A stretch of DNA of 64,000 nucleotides from Hondaea fermentalgiana. Taxonomy: Eukaryota; Sar; Bigyra; Thraustochytrida; Thraustochytriidae. Made by a program: the position numbers and the translations under genes. Shown here in pieces: positions 1,740 to 11,730 of this stretch (position 1 is its first letter; every line of letters starts with the position of its first letter). The notes beneath the pieces were generated by a model that was given only the letters and a program-made list of their open reading frames with translations, was not told the DNA's origin and did no database searches. The stretch is taken from positions 27,291 to 91,290 of the forward strand of contig NPFB01000102.1 in assembly GCA_014084085.1 (NCBI GenBank). The letters are read 5' to 3'.

Positions 1740-3030
1740 TCAGTACTTTTTGGTTTTATCAGTCTCGACGTCGGCACCTTTGAGGTTCTCGTTCGCGTCG
1801 CGCGGAGGAGAAACGCGACCTCGTTTCTTTCCGCCTTTGTCTGTGTCTTTGTTGCTTGCGTCTGATGCTTCGGCGGGAGCACAAACGCTCACTTCTGCTT
1901 CCTCGGGGTCATCCTGGCCGGGCTGGTGGCGCCACACGCGTACCACGGGATGGGTGGCACGGCCTTCCGGAACTTCGCCTGAAGCCAAGAGATCCTGGTT
2001 GGGATGCGCATCGACCGCAAGGACGACGCCAACGTGGCCAAGAAGCTTTTGCGCAACCTTTTTCGTTTGCACGTCCCAAATATAAACGTGATGATCCTCC
2101 GATCCAGAAGCAATCCAATGGCCGGAGGTGACAGCAAAGGTGGAGAGCATACAATAGCGCTCACTCACGTGGCCTTCGTAGGTTTTGGCGACTTTGCCCT
2201 CTGCAAAGTTCCATAGACGCAAGGTCGAATCTAGAGTACCAGCAAGAATAAACTTGCCATTCGGAGAAAAGGTTGCAAAGGACACAGCCGGATTGGTGTC
2301 GCCAATAATAGTCTTGCAGCACTGCCCGCTGCCTGCATCCCATATGCGAATGAGACCATCGTATGAGCTGGAGACGATCATGGTACCCTCGCGGTTGAAG
2401 CTTGTTGCGGTTACCGGGTCAGAGTGAGCGGGTATCGTGCGCACAGCCTTGCCCTGGCGAACGTCCCATAATCGTACGGTGGAGTCGAAGGAGCCTGCGT
2501 TGGCGCGTACGCGAATTGAGTTGCTGTTAGCATTTTCCGTGGACAAACGTGCGTGCGTGCGAAAGCCCCCTCGCTTCGACAGCTCAACACTTACCTGTGA
2601 CGAGCACATTTGCTTGCGGACTAAAGTCCACACTAAATACATAATCGCGGTGGCCCTCCATGGTGCGCAGGCACTTTCCAGTATGCACGTCGCTGAGTCG
2701 CGCAGTGGTATCGTCGGACGCAGTGCATATGAAGCGCGAGTCGGCAGACCAGCAGACCCCCGAAATGCCAGCCTTGTGTCCGCGCACGCGGCGTCTAAAT
2801 CTGCCGGGGGTTTCGTCATCAGAGACATCCCAGATGATGACGCTTTTATCTGCGCTCGCGCTCGCGAGAAGTTTCCCGTCGGGCGAGAATTTGACGCCCG
2901 AAATGCCGGCGTCGTGGCCCTCGAGCTTGAGCCATGGCAGGAAATTAGGCTCTTGGCTGGCCGTCTGCCGCTTGTCTCGAGGCTCCACGCTAGGCATTGG
3001 TCGCCCGGACAGGGACGAGAGCGCCGACAT
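1740..3030 (-). CDS. WDR5-like WD40 repeat protein (copy B, one intron)
   Basis: Spliced gene: complement of 1740-2494 joined to 2595-3030, with a 100-bp intron at 2495-2594. The donor GTAAGT follows the first base of a Gly codon and the acceptor is GCAG. Joining gives VTG/SFDSTVRLWD across the junction, which restores a canonical WD40 blade. The product is about 396 residues with blades ending SVIIWD, TARLSD, TVRLWD, LIRIWD, TLRLWN, HVYIWD and VVRVWR, then a Lys/Asp-rich hydrophilic tail. It is clearly paralogous to copy A: GSFD, the ATFSPNGKF blade and the QTKK/QTKR blade align. Copy A has no intron at the matching GSFD position. Expected role is a nuclear scaffold propeller of WDR5 type. 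The start MSALSSL is the only reasonable Met before the first blade. Confidence 0.85.
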
Positions 3031-3365
3031 GGCGTCGGGATACGCTACGAATCTCGCCCAGCGCTCGCTTGCGCCAACCTAGCGCGCGAGCGAGATCAAG
3101 CAAAGTCTATGGAGGACGATGCCCCCCACGTCTCGACTCCCGACGACGATTTTGGTCGACACGAGGTGAGCGAGAAGGGCAAAGACAGTTGCACGGAGCG
3201 TAGAGGGTCGACGCGTCGGCGGCCGAAGCCTGACGTGCACTTGACGCCCCCGCCTCGCTCGCCCCGTGCGCCACGTCGAGGACGCGGACGACACCGTTTT
3301 TGCTCGCTCGTCCGCGACCTAAAAAAGTTTTTCCCCCATCATGTCTACTGGCATTATGATGACAT
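3031..3365. other. Short spacer upstream of WD40 copy B
   Basis: This is the presumed promoter/5' UTR of WD40 copy B (minus strand), and it ends where the kinase-like relic begins. No gene seen. Confidence 0.4.
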
Positions 3366-3976
3366 GCAAAGGGCAAAGGGCCTTGGTGTAGGCTCGATCG
3401 CTGCTGAGCGAAGCAGCCTCGAGCTCTTCACCCTGGAGGAGACTGAGGGTGAGACGCTACAGAACTAGGATGCTGAGAGCGGGTGTCCTTGAGAACCGCA
3501 TTTCAGGGTTTTCTTGAAGGAGTGAAATGACCTCTTCAAGATCGTTGTCAAGTATTTGACGCTCTTGCAGCATCTCGAGCACGTGAAAAAGATCAACACG
3601 TGCATCTTCGTCGTCGTTTGCCTCGTCATCGTCGTCTCCTTTGCGTTCCTGAAAGCTGGCGTAGCTGCAGATCCAGTTGACGGAGTTGAAGACATGTTTG
3701 AAGATGCTGCTCGGCTTCGGTCAGGCCTTGACGAATGGCTTCGGCCTGGAAAAGGAGACGAGCCTTTGTGACGAGGCCTCGGCGAGTATGGCTTTCTTCG
3801 GAAGTTCGAGAAGGGCGCGCAGCTCCGCTTCGAGTTGAGTCGCGTCAATATTCGCATTGTGCAAGTGCTTTTCGAGGCGAGTGGCCAAGCGCTCAAGCAC
3901 GGCATCCTCCAGCAGGGATGCGCCGTCCCGCGCCAGCGGTAGCACGAGCGCCGCGCTGAAGATGGCGTCGATCGGA
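3366..3976 (-). pseudogene. Decayed inverted copy of the kinase gene's 5' coding region
   Basis: Read on the minus strand, this stretch repeats the N-terminal third of the kinase encoded from 4155 on the plus strand. Shared peptides include LARDGASLLEDAV, IDATQLEAELR, LTEAEQHLQTCLQL, EEVISLLQENP and EELEAASLSSDR, all in the same order. The copy lacks about ten residues after LLEDAV and has at least three frame changes plus in-frame stops. It stops matching just before the kinase domain. It is therefore a broken gene fragment lying head-to-head with the parent, with about 180 bp between the two start regions. It cannot encode the parental protein. Boundaries are estimated from where similarity fades. 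Confidence 0.85.
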
Positions 3977-4154
3977 TGGACAACCACTTTCAACTCTTTC
4001 GCCCTCCTTTTTACTGTATGATGAAGCCGCCTTTCCTCAGGGCGTGTGCACTAAGTATTTGATACCCAAAACACTACAAATGCTACAAAAAATGTAAGTG
4101 GGCGCGTTGCACGTGCCGTCAGGACAAACCAGCATCCAGAGAAAAGGGAAAACG

Positions 4155-6771
4155 ATGGACGCCATCTCCGGCGTGGCGCTTGTGCTGCAGCTGGCGCGGG
4201 ACGGCGCATCCCTGCTGGAGGATGCCGTGGCCTGCAAGCGAAAGGCAACGCATCTCAAGACCGTGCTTGAGCGCTTGGTCTCTCACCTCGAGCAGCTGCA
4301 CGATGCGGACATTGACGCTACTCAGCTCGAAGCGGAGCTGCGCGACCTTCTTGACCTTCTGAAGCCATATTTTGGCGACAATACCCGCCGAGGCCTCGCC
4401 GCAAGAGCTCGCCTCCTTTTCCAAGCCAGAGCCATTCGACAAGCCCTGACCGAAGCGGAGCAGCATCTCCAAACATGTCTTCAACTCTGTCAACTCGATC
4501 TGCAGCTGCGCCAGCAGCGTTCAGGAATGCAAGAAAACCGCGATGAGGAGGCAAACGACGACGAGGCAGATGATGCTGAAGATGCGCATGATGACTTGTT
4601 TCATGTGCTTGGATTGCTGCAAGAGCGTGGGCTACTTGACAACGACCCTGAAGAGGTCATTTCGCTTCTTCAAGAAAACCCCAACATCGACATAAACGCG
4701 GTTCTCGAGGGTCAACTCGGTACCCGCCGTCAGCGTGGAGCTATGGAACGTCTTACACGTAGTCTCATTCAAGCAGAAGAGCTTGAGGCCGCTTCGCTCA
4801 GCAGCGATCGAGTCTTTATCAAGGCCCCTTTGCAGGTTCTCGGTGAAGGTCAGTTCGGCCAAGTTGTCCTTGGCGTTTACCGGCGTGATGATGGTTCCGA
4901 AGTCGAGACGGCGATCAAGCGCGTCAAGCCAAACGGTCGTCGCATGCAATTGCACGAGCATCAAGCCCTCATGCGTGAAGCGGCGAACTGGAATGGTCTC
5001 GAGCATGCCAACATTGTTTGTTTACTTGGAACCTGCATCATTGAGAACCGTTTTCATCTCGTCATGGACAAGTGCGACATGTCGCTCGACGACCTCTTGT
5101 ACGAGAGCGAGGCTGACGCGGCGACATTAGCACTGTCTCTCGACGACAAGGAAGCCGTTCTGCGCGGTGTCGCTCGTGGCCTCGAGTACCTTCACGGCAA
5201 CTTAATCGTCCATCGAGACCTCAAGCCAGCCAATATTCTGCTCAGCCGAGATCTTGGTCTCGTCAAGCTAGCAGATTTTGGCCTCGCCACACAGATCAAG
5301 GCTAACAGCAGCATCGCCGACACTATCTCATCTGTTGGCACACCAGCCTATATGGCACCCGAAGTTCTGCAAGCGCCTATCCAATGGACGACGCGCGCGG
5401 ACATCTATGCCTTCGGCATTGTTATGTGGGAAGTCTACCATGGTAAATCGCCGTTTGAGCACAGCATACGCTCGATCTCAGATCTAGAGACTCGAGTCTT
5501 GAACGGAGAGCGACCCCTCATTTCAGATGAGGTTGACGTTCGTCTGTGGGTTGTGCGTCTGATGGAAAGGTGCTGGAAGCATGACCCAGAGGACCGCCCA
5601 CGTGCTTCCGAGATTCTCAGAACTTTCGAAGGTCGTACGAATGTTCGTCGGTCAACGCGACTCATCCGTGGCCTGGTGTCAGTAGTCTTGCGAAGTCGCG
5701 GCGGTCGAAATGGTATTGAAGATGCCAGCATTGAGCTTGTGCAAGGTCTTGTCCGCGACTTGTCTGAGGATACGGGCAATCTCATGCGCACATTGGACAC
5801 ACTTCGGATTAGTCTCGAGCAGGAGCGCGATGCTCATGCTGGAGATGTATTGCGTGCAGAGGCACTTTCTCGAGGTATCATTGGGAGCACAAAGAGGATC
5901 TTAGAGCACAGCACGGATCCCGAAATTCTAACAAAGGCTTTGTGGCTACTCCGGCTCGCTCTGTCTGGATCTTCGGGTACTTCGTTTCGAATTGCGGCCA
6001 TTCAAGAGCATGATCTTGGGAGTATTGCAATCGAAACGTTTCAAGCGTTTCGCGACCATGAAGACCTTCAAGCAGCAGCTTGTGGATTTGTTGCTATTGT
6101 TTCATCTGACAGCTTGCGCAATGAGAGTATTCTTGTGCAAGAGCTCGAGGTCAGCACAGAGATCGTCGCGGCTATGCGCGCTCATCCAAGAAGTGAAGTT
6201 GTGCAGGAAAATGCATGCGGAGCTCTTCGGAATCTCTCGGTCAACGATCGCAACAAGGTGATCCTCGGGCAAGAGCTCGAGGTCGGCACAGAGATCGTCG
6301 CGGCCATGCGCGCTCATCCAGGAAGTGAAGTCGTGCAGGAGAACGCATGCGGAGCTCTTCGGAATCTCGCATTAGGTAATGATCGCAACAAGGTGATCCT
6401 CGGGCAAGAGCTCGAGGTCGGCACAGAGATCGTNNNNNNNNNNNNNNNNNNNNNNNNNNNNNNNNNNNNNNNNNNNNNNNNNNNNNNNNNNNNNNNNNNN
6501 NNNNNNNNNNNNNNNNNNNNNNNNNNNNNNNNNCGGGCAAGAGCTTGAGGTCGGCACAGAGATCGTCGCGGCCATGCGCGCTCATCCAGGAAGTGAAGTC
6601 GTGCAGGAGAAAGCATGCGGAGCTCTTCGGAATCTTGCCCTCAACTCGTCCATCAAAGCTATCCTCCGAAGGCAGGGCGCTGTGGAGGCAGTGCAGCGCA
6701 CTTGTGAGCGCTTTCCGTCACTTTCATCCGCCGAAGAAGCGAAAGCAAAACTCCTTAGTGGCTCTACCTAA
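4155..6771 (+). CDS. TKL-type protein kinase with four-helix-like N-terminus and C-terminal armadillo repeats
   Basis: Residue numbers count from the Met at 4155. Residues 1-125 are predicted helical: a hydrophobic first helix (VALVLQLARDGASLLEDAV), then three amphipathic helices. The layout resembles the N-terminal bundle of MLKL/HeLo-type proteins. An acidic linker (130-150) follows. The kinase domain (about 225-495) is complete: GEGQFGQV at 230-237, Lys255 in AIK, HRDLKPAN at 353-360, DFG at 374-376, APE at 401-403, and DIYAFGIVMWE typical of TKL kinases. After a helical linker come armadillo repeats of 44-45 residues (ELEV..EIVAAMRAHP..ENACGALRNL). A 100-N gap at 6434-6533 interrupts the gene, so the frame changes across it, and the end is taken from the frame that stops at 6771. 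An upstream in-frame Met at 4098 is less likely. It is probably a catalytically active signalling kinase; the substrate is unknown. Confidence 0.85.
6141..6634 (+). repeat. Near-identical tandem armadillo-coding units (132-135 bp)
   Basis: Units start at 6141, 6273 and 6408, with spacings of 132 and 135 bp. Each encodes ELEV-x-TEIVAAMRAHP-x-SEVVQENACGALRNL. A further unit follows the assembly gap. The nucleotide identity is high for protein repeats, which suggests recent duplication or gene conversion and explains the assembly failure here. True copy number is unknown. Confidence 0.9.
6434..6533. other. Assembly gap (100 N)
   Basis: Exactly 100 N, a placeholder length. The 33 bases before the gap (from 6401) and the 33 after it (from 6534) are the same except for one C/T difference, so the contig ends overlap or sit in adjacent repeat units. 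Confidence 0.95.
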
Positions 6772-8503
6772 CGAAGACGCCGACAATTCCAAATGTCGCG
6801 CTTTTTGCTCCACACGGTTTCGTGTGGAAGTATTATGTTCCCTGTCGACCAATTGGTAACCCTTGAAAATATATGGTTTCCTAAATCTGCAATTCGAATC
6901 CCTGGCCAACCAAAGCCAGACATGTCTGTTGGGAAGTGGAAATGACGTGAGCAGACAGCAGCGCCACAGAAGTAGTGCAGTCAAGTTGGCACCCATGGGA
7001 AGTCTTTTATAGACTTGCCGTGCCAATAACCATCCAATCTCAGCAGCCACTAGTTCGTACGACATTAAGGTAAGTCTATCTTCGCTCAGAGCACGGTCTA
7101 GCACGGACAAAGCTTTGAGATCATCAAACTCTTCGCTACATCCTCGAGACGACACTTAAGGTGGAGAGAAACATCGATTTTCACCACCTTGTAGGCGGAG
7201 ATTCCCCAGAGGTCAGAAAGAATAGAAAGAAGAAGTTGATTTCAATAAACGTAAAAGAAATTCCGTTCCGTGGCTTGCACGAAACGGGAAGGTAGGTTGA
7301 TTGCTTCTCACGCTGCTGCTCGGAGAAAGCTTTGGTGTAGTTCAATATTCTGATGGGTTTCGGTTCTGCCGGCTTCTGGCATCGGTTTTGGTCGCTGCCA
7401 GGTCTATTCGGCTCAGTGGTCCCAGGGTCGTAGCCCTGGTCTATTTCTGCTATGTAGGTCTATGACTGTACTAAGGTTCGTTTGGGTGTACATCCTGGAT
7501 GTACCCGACGTGTTATGCACGCGAGGCGTGATGCTCTTTCGTCGTGCCCTTCCGACGTTTGTCGTCGGGTGTCTACCTCTCTTATAGCAGTTTCCCGCCT
7601 GGCATTAGGTCTTTGGGAATGTCCACCTCATTATTGTGGATCAATACCACCAGACAAATTCGTCTCAGCAGAAGCGAAACTTCCCAGACATTCTTAGCGT
7701 ACTTAGGCATACTAGCAAACCATTCAACTCTACTTACTTCAATAATCTCTGAAGCGTTTTTGGAGAACTTAAGGCGAAAACTTGCCAAACATATTGTCAT
7801 CAGTGGCTGCCAAAGACCTGCACTAATTTACGAGTGCTGAACTCGAATGCCCTGATTTACCCGCCGGACGTTATAGAGGAAGAGCAAAGATGAAAAATGT
7901 TACCATTGTTTACGGGTCGAACAGTCGGTAAAAGCGTCGACCGCAGAGACAAAGTTGCGCACCTGCCATAAAAACCTGCATCGCCATCCTCATCGAAGCG
8001 CGAATCGCTATCGTAGTCATTGTCGTCTTCTTCGAGCTCTCCATCGGAAATAACGTTCAGATTGAGCATACACTGATGGTGAACTGACGAATGACCGAAG
8101 AACGGTGTCATCCCCACAAGAGAGACAGGAATTTACAAAGCGAACGCCATTCGTTGTCGTCCAGAAGAGCTTGTGGCGCATGTGAAATGACTTGTTGGCC
8201 TCGCATGGGCGTGCACGGATTGTTGGTCTGCAGGTATGCGTCGCACTCGATGACGTTGACGGTACAATCGATTGGGAGCATGCACGCAGGGTCTTCGCCA
8301 GCAGAAGATGTCGGAAACCTCGGCAATGGAATTCAGTGTCGAGAAGATTATTGAAACAAATGCGTATTCTGAGCTGAGTCATCTCTGCAAATGAACGGGC
8401 GGAGAGAGCGTAGTATTCCAACGACAGTCTTACTGCAATCTAGGACCTGCGCCGGACGTTTTTACGAGACGACGGACGGTGTCGACTCAGTCATTGCGGC
8501 ACT
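6772..8503. other. 1.7-kb lower-GC region without a confirmed gene
   Basis: This stretch is visibly more AT-rich than its neighbours. It holds several short open frames with no recognisable family. There is a near-palindrome around 7490-7505 (GGGTGTACATCC/GGATGTACCC) and a short hairpin around 7427-7442 (CCAGGGT/AGCCCTGG). It could be an old mobile-element remnant or simple intergenic DNA, and I cannot identify any transposase or reverse transcriptase. Confidence 0.4.
7900..8326 (-). other. Coding-like minus-strand segment with a frame break
   Basis: One frame (to about 8110) ends in LLDDNEWRSLCKFLSLLWG. A second frame continues with FFGHSSVHHQCMLNLNV and a run of Asp/Glu. Together they read like the C-terminal part of one acidic-tailed protein with a frameshift or an unrecognised intron between. 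No family is recognised. It may be a broken gene. Confidence 0.25.
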
Positions 8504-9733
8504 TTATGCAGCGGTGAGATTTGCTGCTGAGGCTGAGAGATGGGGATTATTTAAGTCCGAATCGGAGGCGTCCGAGCCAACGTGCATGACACGCCGCAAA
8601 CTCGATCCCTTCACGGGTCTAGGGACTTCCTGATGAACATTGCGATCCATCTCAAAGCGATCGACCGCGTCAAAGGTTTCAAGAATGACACGCGGGAAGA
8701 TTCTTGAAGTCTGAAGAATGCTGGACACATGACCTCCGGAGATGTCGATCTTTCGCGAAGAGATTACGAAAGGCTGCATTATGTCAAAGAGCATCATGCT
8801 TTCCTGTGGTCTGACGTACATATCGTGAAGAGCTCTCACGCAAGTGAAAGCTGCACGGGGAGGAGGAGATTTGCGACAACGAAGGATGTCAAAGAAGGGG
8901 TCCAGCTCGCGAGGCTCGAGGACCTCGGTGAGTCGGGCTTTGGCCTCCCTCTTCGTGCGAAAGCCTTCTTCGTCCTTTGTGAGTGTACGAAAGTGGCAAA
9001 TTCGATGAAAGACGCCGGTCATGAGCGCCATGCTTCGCGAGGGCGCAGCAAAGGTGCAAAGTGCGAGTGGGGGCACGACGTCGATGTCGTCGATGCTCTC
9101 GAGCTCAATCACGGCAGATGGATATGCAGCCGCTGCAACGGCACCTCCAAAACTCGTCCCTGAGAGACCGATGGGGACGCCGGGATAGAGTTGAGCAGCG
9201 TGTTTTACAAGCTTGGCCGCCTCAACCAGGGTTGTTGGCATTTGCAGCAAAAAGCTCCCAACGGAGGAGATAAAGTAGGCTCGTTGGTTGACGGGCCGGC
9301 GATGGCCGTAGAATGGAGTTTCGAGGATAAGCGAGGCAAAGCCTTCCTTCGCCAGGGGTTTGGCAACCTGGTCGCGACGCATAGCAAAGCCTTCATCGCC
9401 GGTCGCCGCAAGGTGGACAACCACACCGCGCAAGGGAACTCGTGACGGAGGCGTTACGCACATGACATGGGCCGTCTTCGACTCTTTGGGAAGCCACGCG
9501 GCGCAGGGAGATGGAAAGGTTCCGATTCGCGATCCGTCAGGCGCGGGATTGCCATAGGAAATGTGCGGAATGTCCGCAAAGCCCGTCGTGCCTTTGTCCT
9601 GGATCATGGAGATGAGCTCCCTGTCCGCGTCCATGGCGTCTCCGCCCCAGCCGTCTGCAAAGAACTTGACTCTGCGGCCGCTCACGTAGACGCTGTCGAA
9701 GCCTCCCGCGAGGCGTCCGAGCGCCGCGCTCAT
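8504..9733 (-). CDS. ABHD18-family alpha/beta hydrolase, array member 1
   Basis: The 409-residue protein matches the ABHD18 (formerly DUF2048) family. It has the hallmark FYGHRRP segment followed by a nucleophile elbow GTSFGG with Ser193. The acid residue falls in RALHDMYV and the histidine in SGGHVSS, so a Ser-Asp-His triad is intact. The family's animal member has been reported to act on mitochondrial phospholipid; the substrate here is unknown. The start MSAALGRL aligns with the starts of the two neighbouring paralogs. The frame is open far upstream (to 10603), but that part is GC-rich low complexity. The other four family members follow at 10312-17966. Confidence 0.85.
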   Translation of the reverse strand: MSAALGRLAGGFDSVYVSGRRVKFFADGWGGDAMDADRELISMIQDKGTTGFADIPHISYGNPAPDGSRIGTFPSPCAAWLPKESKTAHVMCVTPPSRVPLRGVVVHLAATGDEGFAMRRDQVAKPLAKEGFASLILETPFYGHRRPVNQRAYFISSVGSFLLQMPTTLVEAAKLVKHAAQLYPGVPIGLSGTSFGGAVAAAAYPSAVIELESIDDIDVVPPLALCTFAAPSRSMALMTGVFHRICHFRTLTKDEEGFRTKREAKARLTEVLEPRELDPFFDILRCRKSPPPRAAFTCVRALHDMYVRPQESMMLFDIMQPFVISSRKIDISGGHVSSILQTSRIFPRVILETFDAVDRFEMDRNVHQEVPRPVKGSSLRRVMHVGSDASDSDLNNPHLSASAANLTAA

Positions 9734-10311
9734 GTTGAGAAACCAGATCACCCGACCCGGCCAGCCACGCTCGTCGGGTCGCAGTTCTACTTTTGCTGCC
9801 CGTCGCTGCCGGCCCGGACCGCGCCGTCCGTCCAGACTGAGGAGGCCGAGGGCGCCGCTTTGCCGCGCGGGCCCGAAGAGTGTCTGCTCACTCGAGGGCC
9901 ACATACCTTTTTCCTGTCGCGCTTCTTGCTCGGCACGTGCAGCGCGGAGCCAGCGCGGGAAGGAGGGGGGGCAGGTCGGTCGATTTGCCCTGGCCGGGCA
10001 CTCTTGCACGCGCCCACCGCGGCACGCACGCACGTATACGCACGCACGATTGCACGTCGCATCTCCGCCTCTCCTGACCTCTCGCGGGACTGCCGGTCGC
10101 GGAGACCCGCACGCGTCGCGGGAGCGCGGCACGCGAGAGCCTCCGGAGCCGCGCGGAGAGGGGGGCAGAGTCGAAGAGACCAAGAGAGAAAGACACGCCA
10201 GCGCTGGTCGCATCATCGCCGCAGGTGAAGGCGAATGGGAGGACGGACTCCGAGGCATGGAAAGCGCAAAGACAAAGTTGATCGGGTTAGCTGCTCTGGA
10301 AAGAGGCGAGA
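9734..10311. other. Spacer between hydrolase array members 1 and 2
   Basis: GC-rich DNA with open frames on both strands that lack any protein-like pattern. It should contain the promoter of member 1 and the 3' UTR of member 2. No gene seen. Confidence 0.4.
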
Positions 10312-11730
10312 TCAGGAGAACACAACTTGAGTGGGAAGGGAGCAAGGTTTGCCTACGTTCAACAATCGAGGGCAAGCGCTTACTACTGAGCTTGCAGCTG
10401 CAGCGAAAGGCAAAGCCGAACTTCCATCTGCTGCAAGAGCAGCCGCAGGTGAGCCTGCCTGACGACCACGACTGCGTCTTCGAAATTTTATCCAAGACGC
10501 TTTCTTGACTCCTTGCCGCCGAAACAAACCCCACGTGAAGTGACCCCATGACGCGGAACATTGTGTTGATCTGACATGCGTGTCGGAGCTCGTCTCTTCG
10601 CACTCTTGATCAGCGTCCGAGCTGTCGTTGAAGGGAATTGGTCGAGGTAGTGACTCGAGCATTGCAAAGGTTTCGAGAATAGTCTTTGGCAAGATGTTTG
10701 ATTTCTGCAAAATACTCGAGCAGTGGCCACCCGAAACGTCCACGAGGCGCCCAGTTGCGACGAATGGAAGGACAGTTTCATATCCAATCAGGCACTCGTG
10801 AGGCCGAACGAAGTGATCGTGAAGCGCCCGTATGCACGTAAACGCGCTTTGGGAAGGTCTGTAGTTACCGAGCAGCACGAAGAAAGACTCCAACGTACGG
10901 GGAGCAAGAACCTCACGAAGACGGGCAGTAGCATCTTCGAGCGTACGATAGCCATCCTTGTTCAAAATAAGGGCTTGATAGTCGAAAAGGTGGCTAAATG
11001 CGCTTTCGAAGAGTGCCTCGCAGCGTGCAGGCGGCAAAAATGTGCAAAGCGCAATGGGTGTTTCGGTCCCAGACCCTTCGTCGAGGACGCGAAACTCATC
11101 CACGATAGAAGGGTAGGCAGCTATCGCGACAGAACCGCCAAAACTGGTGCCAACGAGACCGATAGGAACGCCAGCATACGTGACTTTAGCGTACTTGGCG
11201 AGCTTGGAAACTTCAATGATCGTAGTTGGCAATTGCAAAAGATAGCTACCTACTGTGCCAATGAAAAAGCTCGTTTGATCTTGCGGACGACGCTGACCAT
11301 AGAAGGCGCACTCGAGGATGATTGACACGAAGCCGTCGGCAGCAAGAGGCTCTGCGATCTCTTTGCGGCGAAGCGAAAATCCCTCATCGCCCGTACCTGC
11401 GACTTGGATGAGGATGCCACGGATCTCGTCACCCTTTGGAGGCGAAACGATCATGGCATAGGCTTTTTTACATTCATCTGGAAGCCAATCAGCACACGGA
11501 GAATCAAAGTAGCAGACGCAGATTTCGTCCTCGGGCGCAGTCTCGTCGATGAAGACCAGCTGGTCAATATCAGGAAGCGTTGTGGTGCCATCCTCTTCGA
11601 TGATCCTCAGGAGCGCCTGGTCCTTTTCGTACTCTTCATCCCCCCATCCCTCTGCAAAGAACTTGTGCTTTTGCGAATACACGTACAAGAGGTCAAAGGC
11701 GCCAATGATGCGGCTTACATAAGGCCTCAT
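10312..11730 (-). CDS. ABHD18-family alpha/beta hydrolase, array member 2
   Basis: 472 residues. The N-terminus (IIGAFDLLYVYSQKHKFFAEGWGD) is shared with members 1 and 3. The family segment FYGQRRPQDQ precedes the elbow GTSFGGS (Ser196). Asp is in RALHDHFV and His in VSGGHCSS. It is closest to member 3: the two can be aligned almost without gaps over the first 350 residues, including DGTT..PDID and WLP.E..KAYAMIVSPP. Beyond about residue 370 the C-terminus is a variable tail, basic then Ala/Ser-rich, absent from other members, so the real stop-proximal sequence is specific to this copy. Predicted serine hydrolase of unknown substrate. No signal peptide or clear membrane segment is seen. Confidence 0.88.
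   Translation of the reverse strand: MRPYVSRIIGAFDLLYVYSQKHKFFAEGWGDEEYEKDQALLRIIEEDGTTTLPDIDQLVFIDETAPEDEICVCYFDSPCADWLPDECKKAYAMIVSPPKGDEIRGILIQVAGTGDEGFSLRRKEIAEPLAADGFVSIILECAFYGQRRPQDQTSFFIGTVGSYLLQLPTTIIEVSKLAKYAKVTYAGVPIGLVGTSFGGSVAIAAYPSIVDEFRVLDEGSGTETPIALCTFLPPARCEALFESAFSHLFDYQALILNKDGYRTLEDATARLREVLAPRTLESFFVLLGNYRPSQSAFTCIRALHDHFVRPHECLIGYETVLPFVATGRLVDVSGGHCSSILQKSNILPKTILETFAMLESLPRPIPFNDSSDADQECEETSSDTHVRSTQCSASWGHFTWGLFRRQGVKKASWIKFRRRSRGRQAGSPAAALAADGSSALPFAAAASSVVSACPRLLNVGKPCSLPTQVVFS

Follow-up and report, generated by a model that had tools for sequence, protein, structure and literature searches.

The gene we describe here, which occupies positions 4155-6771 of the plus strand of a 64,000-nucleotide stretch of contig NPFB01000102.1 (the window) from Hondaea fermentalgiana (Stramenopiles, Labyrinthulomycetes), combines in a single chain an N-terminal helical bundle, an active-looking kinase of the TKL type and a C-terminal array of armadillo (ARM) repeats. 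The bundle probably belongs to the MLKL class, and we consider it conceivable, at somewhat less than even chances, that the product is a sensor-kinase-executioner joining RIPK3-like and MLKL-like roles; judged from sequence, the family may provide a switch for cell suicide or immunity within a single protein. The main rival of this executioner reading is a bundle that serves for non-lethal docking. The succession of a helical N-terminus, a kinase and armadillo repeats is confirmed as the original prediction gave it, where the stretch of 100 N that breaks the array went unmentioned. The claim that such a linkage would be a novel regulatory design does not hold in that form, since fusions of kinases or pseudokinases with MLKL or HELL bundles are known from plants and fungi (available parts of PMC10951266 and PMC12881547); what is new here is the ARM array, the mixture of active kinases and pseudokinases, and the lineage.

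Reading frame and domain layout

The methionine codon at 4155 opens 759 stop-free codons that extend up to position 6434, where the array is interrupted by the 100 N (6435-6534); the last repeat follows from 6535, and the sequence runs on through the C-terminus to a TAA stop ending at 6771. The frames on either side of the N run disagree across 100 bases, so that 100 is not taken as the true size of the gap. The deposited protein P0006 (681 amino acids) is 100% identical to the gene over the shared part. It starts at residue 125, thereby leaving out the bundle, and its C-terminal residues do not carry on the repeat. We assign the first 124 residues to the gene on sequence grounds, because they are in frame, have counterparts in P0003 and P0008, two annotated paralogs, and show a ratio of nonsynonymous to synonymous substitution rates (dN/dS) of 0.23 over 124 codons aligned with the minus-strand paralog of locus C230, which indicates purifying selection. 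This ratio is low over both the bundle and the kinase.

From the N-terminus, the chain consists of the bundle (residues 1-125, 4155-4529), annotated as MLKL executioner-like with five predicted helices from AlphaFold2 (AF2), Foldseek, VIA, the profile comparison with decoys and the dN/dS value; an acidic linker with brace-like helices (residues 126-225, 4530-4829), modelled with low confidence, whose end (EGQLGTR..R.A..) is conserved across paralogs; the TKL-type kinase domain with intact catalytic motifs (residues 226-495, 4830-5639); a post-kinase segment with the first armadillo-like helices (residues 496-658, 5640-6128); and armadillo units of 44-45 residues starting at residues 659, 703 and 748 (6129-6434), the third of which is cut by the N run. 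The armadillo repeats of the original prediction are supported by two Pfam models that both exceed their cut-offs, Arm with 39.6 bits against 20.6 and ARM_LRRK2, matching from residue 585, with 27.7 against 26.2. The kinase is recognised by PF07714 (E 1.3e-50, residues 227-490) and keeps the VAIK lysine K255, the αC glutamate E275, H353-R354-D355, N360, D374-F375-G376 and A401-P402-E403; every motif of the intact TKL kinase announced earlier is present, and by these motifs the domain appears to be an active TKL kinase. The PADLOC matches of the gene (mad6 and others) fall on this domain and were set aside as generic kinase similarity.

We consider it highly improbable that this locus, as part of a repeat-rich family, is in decay and would yield no functional full-length protein. 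The N run, the stop codons of the truncated partner gene and the two frame changes in the plus-strand copy of C230 (both described below), together with the late start and off-repeat end of the deposited model, would be in keeping with decay, but the length of the open frame ahead of the gap, the low dN/dS over bundle and kinase and the retention of the catalytic motifs argue against it.

The N-terminal bundle and its relatives

The AF2 model places five helices (6-21, 28-50, 56-73, 81-89 and 91-124) inside the first 125 residues, and Foldseek ranks MLKL executioner domains first among its matches, with the Rx-CC and CC-R domains of plants coming next. When the bundles of six family members are combined into a profile, hhalign aligns it with human MLKL from one end to the other, at a score above 335 of 335 decoys; the natural ones among these were segments of coiled coils, ARM repeats, kinases, carriers and large kinase proteins, and no deliberate choice of true four-helix bundles was made. 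The Pfam model MLKL_N matches the gene with an E-value of only 0.33, yet the match covers positions 4-140 of its 142. Behind the bundle, helices are predicted at residues 144-157, 165-173, 180-184 and 191-214 (predicted local distance difference test, pLDDT, below 50 by block), where MLKL has its two-helix brace.

Several observations weigh against the assignment to MLKL. The confidence of the bundle model is moderate (block pLDDT 68-84 over residues 11-70), none of the Foldseek E-values is significant, the TM-scores to MLKL stay below 0.5, and the hhalign probability against human MLKL is only 12.8%. The MLKL_N gathering score of 27 bits is missed both by the window gene (13.4 bits, residues 1-144) and by P0011 (16.7 bits); a Sec15 profile reaches E 0.0048 in one paralog, and a reversed bundle E 0.011 against an unrelated family. 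The TM-score by target to the NRG1 CC-R domain, 0.56-0.58, is higher than that to MLKL. MLKL_N finds no match when run against the whole Hondaea genome. Among PDB sequences, residues 1-225 used as a single query return two matches, both to condensin, and the A5 profile returns two unrelated entries and no MLKL at E<=10, for which reason the A4 profile was not relied upon by itself and the hhalign comparison with decoys was added.

The bundle could accordingly be unrelated to MLKL, its likeness being due to chance among helical bundles, an explanation favoured by the lack of any database search significant alone, by the low TM-scores and hhalign probability, and by the Sec15 and reversed-bundle scores; we hold it to be unlikely, as the fold ranking, the A5 profile and Pfam MLKL_N agree with one another and do so with collinear full-length alignments. 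The non-lethal docking alternative, to which we give a real chance, if clearly below even, would see in the bundle a four-helix scaffold of the MLKL/CC class for dimerisation or docking, comparable to the Cbl 4H and plant CC-like domains, within an ordinary signalling kinase provided with an ARM scaffold. Against it stand the leading rank of MLKL and CC-R domains in Foldseek and the end-to-end MLKL alignment above all decoys; degenerate kinases that retain their bundle, described below, would also be more in keeping with an executioner than with a signalling enzyme. We describe the bundle as MLKL-like, yet do not class it as MLKL. The MLKL-like bundle of the original prediction is thus supported by the fold ranking and by the profile score, and not by the Pfam cut-off, the TM-scores or the hhalign probability; the structure prediction gives a helical bundle, with five helices and a weak superposition on MLKL. 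Its hydrophobic first helix proves to be moderately so (maximum 17-residue Kyte-Doolittle mean 1.15), and no HeLo profile or HET-S structure is among the Pfam or fold matches listed for the gene, an absence that does not argue against its HeLo likeness.

Among known systems, animal MLKL (four-helix bundle, brace and pseudokinase) ranks first for the window bundle by fold and profile, and shares with our gene a helical linker followed by a kinase-like domain. It differs in three respects: here the bundle, which misses the MLKL_N cut-off, sits in one chain with an active-looking kinase; this kinase, with K255, HRD and DFG all intact, is not a pseudokinase in the sense of MLKL; and a C-terminal ARM array follows, which to our knowledge is absent from MLKL. 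The best solved sequence relatives of the kinase are RIPK1 entries (E 1.2e-31), followed by one EGFR entry and LRRK2, a match to RIPK1 that expresses rank of similarity and not phylogeny; the mixture of active and degenerate kinases in the family also recalls MLKL and RIPK1/RIPK3. The NLRs of plants have an NB-ARC switch and an LRR behind their CC domain. Their CC and CC-R domains (Rx, NRG1, NRC) are the next-best fold matches, and an executioner combined with a repeat-array sensor would be common to both; unlike NLRs, the window gene has a kinase in the place of the NB-ARC switch and ARM in that of the LRR. LRRK2, where ARM precedes the kinase, has in common with the gene the ARM_LRRK2 profile and the kinase match, in the reverse order of domains, and ROC-COR, LRR and WD40 are absent from the nine Pfam matches at E<=1 of P0001.

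Executioners of the MLKL type have been described from animals, plants and fungi, and fungal HELL domains occur with a kinase or pseudokinase (available part of PMC12881547). Wheat Pm13 and the plant MLKLs, which belong to another lineage, join an MLKL_NTD to a kinase in the same order of bundle, brace and kinase as here, and the main text of PMC10951266 mentions neither armadillo nor ARM repeat. According to the accessible parts of the sources, the fungal MLKL-like bundles make up a large superfamily (PMC9815663), and the MLKL homologs of Glomeromycotina bear Sel1 repeats where the window gene has ARM (PMC8778642). A 2024 study of MLKL evolution covers Metazoa in comparison with fungi and plants, the words protist and unicellular being absent from its main text (PMC11476962). 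Among the matches listed from the open-licence PMC literature, no title or start of abstract reports an MLKL/HeLo-type protein in a thraustochytrid, a stramenopile or a diatom, or one combined with armadillo.

Kinase states, repeat variation and proposed working

The Hondaea genome and the protein collection searched contain 11 copies of this architecture, whole or in clearly recognisable parts: the window gene, P0003 (the minus copy of C230), the plus copy of C230 (also P0005), P0004, P0007, P0010, P0008 (C77), C81, C167, P0009 and P0011, the last two at 42-43% identity. P0007 and P0010 are partial, and P0010, which begins within the kinase, was judged on HRD, DFG and APE only. Six kinases look active and five are degenerate: P0003 has NYG instead of DFG, P0008 has HHD and NFG, C81 has CGD and NFE, in C167 the glycine loop is missing and the motifs read HGA and GFG, and P0011 has T in place of the catalytic-loop N, and GFG. 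The active kinase followed by ARM that the original prediction described is thus valid for the window gene and for only part of its family. In the best tree, from which P0005 and P0010 were left out and for which the plus copy of C230 was used only in part, the active and degenerate labels require two changes, P0003 being closely grouped with four active copies; only one of the nine inner branches has strong support, and the supported branches force a single label change.

The longest member examined, C81 (L034 5256-9494), has a pseudokinase-like kinase, a long inserted loop in its bundle and a long array. The deposited model of P0004 (1042 amino acids) joins a kinase of the family to a mitochondrial carrier; of the two halves, only the carrier one is found at high identity in the assembly, so that this fusion may be an error of annotation or assembly. 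Two further proteins were kept outside the count. P0012 (619 amino acids, from a metagenome of JGI source) has an active-looking kinase with 45% identity over 40% of the query, and a helical and hydrophobic N-terminus; in the place of the array, downstream of the kinase, inspection by eye shows hydrophobic stretches. The C232 protein (L037 2-2737, minus strand) has a similar layout with another type of repeat, namely a helical N-terminus, a kinase with active motifs and, at the C-terminus, a WD40 propeller. By eye it resembles a second MLKL-type fusion, a likeness that finds no support in the PDB search, in hhalign or in Pfam; its N-terminus, for which a single locus matched, shows in Pfam only PF17111 (E 0.17), a family formerly named Helo_like_N that touches no other protein here.

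The 44-45-residue units of the arrays share a conserved framework (I-L-G-Q-E-L, A-A-M, H, V-Q, A-C, L) and differ at certain columns. In importin-alpha and beta-catenin, spaced positions of helix H3 line the peptide-binding groove. The columns predicted to correspond to them, 27, 28, 31, 34 and 35, exceed the other columns in mean entropy in each of the arrays (six arrays, 40 units), a value reached by 209 of 100000 random five-column sets, or 230 of 100000 when these are drawn within the last helix. Off-pattern units and units of other length were excluded; for the column table, 17 units from the window, C230 and C156 were used out of 31 kept, none of them from the window tail. Other columns, notably 10, 38, 24, 21, 7 and 20, are equally variable. 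The groove columns were picked after the entropy table of an overlapping set had been seen, so that the enrichment of repeat variation at the predicted groove positions is supportive only. Across close copies, the whole unit shows a proportion of nonsynonymous differences (pN) of 0.22 for a synonymous one (pS) of 0.53, which means that purifying selection dominates in the array. The same type of ARM repeat occurs at C190, C14, C156 and C173 with no kinase within the match; these are possibly free arrays or remnants of genes.

Observed architecture, motif state, selection and similarity are the basis on which we infer a working whose functional steps are all conditional. The C-terminal ARM array would bind a ligand or partner via its groove. 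This binding, or clustering, would bring the kinase domains together, and the active copies would phosphorylate themselves and their pseudokinase sisters. The phosphorylation would free the MLKL-like bundle from its brace, leading to its oligomerisation, to the permeabilisation of the membrane and ultimately to the killing of the cell, most likely as a defence against viruses or non-self. The slightly negative net charge of the bundle speaks against this working. Viruses of the thraustochytrid group, both RNA and DNA, are known (available part of PMC4512727), and two tblastn scans of viral contigs detected no relative. If the bundle kills, sensor, activating kinase and executioner would all be integrated in one chain, a marine protist group would possess a candidate antiviral or non-self death pathway, and, with active and degenerate paralogs side by side in a single genome, it would become testable how a kinase-plus-bundle ancestor splits into an activator and a pseudokinase executioner.

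Head-to-head pair and duplicated segment

C230 holds two copies in head-to-head orientation. The one on the minus strand is intact and pseudokinase-like; the plus copy looks active and has two frame changes, which may reflect errors, introns or decay. The window segment 3373-6431 aligns with C230 as a single colinear block (3236 columns, 82.3%), and further pieces match C230 in the same order (6534-6862, 7745-8222 and 8220-8331), the last two entering its next gene. On account of this block and these ordered pieces, the window locus and the C230 pair are duplicates of one segment, no direction being implied, and the window gene groups with the plus copy of C230 in the tree (82/85). The partner of the window gene (3373-3974, minus strand) comprises a truncated bundle and linker with two stops (1 TGA, 1 TAG) and ends before the kinase. 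Its interpretation as a decayed full gene was rejected: its alignment to C230 breaks off where the kinase begins, which makes it a truncated stub at the boundary of the duplication. Between the two genes lies a spacer (3975-4154), whose half adjoining the window gene, in a match extending over 4038-4170, resembles the C230 spacer (81.7%, 142 columns). The far side of the duplicated block is represented by a fragmentary match at 7745-8331 (minus strand) to sequence downstream of the C230 pair, some of which lies in the next gene there.

The shared head-to-head layout makes a divergent pair the simplest ancestral unit; by analogy, some immune sensor and executor genes also stand as divergent pairs. 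A stramenopile necroptosis-like circuit can be imagined, in which divergent pairs of ARM sensors would carry the same MLKL-like bundle, joined in one member to an active kinase (RIPK3-like and executioner) and in the other to a pseudokinase (MLKL-like), the arrays having been diversified like NLR-type receptors. We regard this circuit as rather unlikely; if it were true, the split of kinase and pseudokinase that characterises necroptosis would have evolved outside animals.

Just past the stub, a WDR5-like WD40 gene (1740-3078, minus strand) is recognised by Pfam as a WDR5 propeller in two parts (E 7.2e-77 and 5.4e-33), and its two overlapping open frames suggest an intron. On the other side, a long open frame at 8504-10609 (minus strand) looks by eye like an alpha/beta hydrolase.
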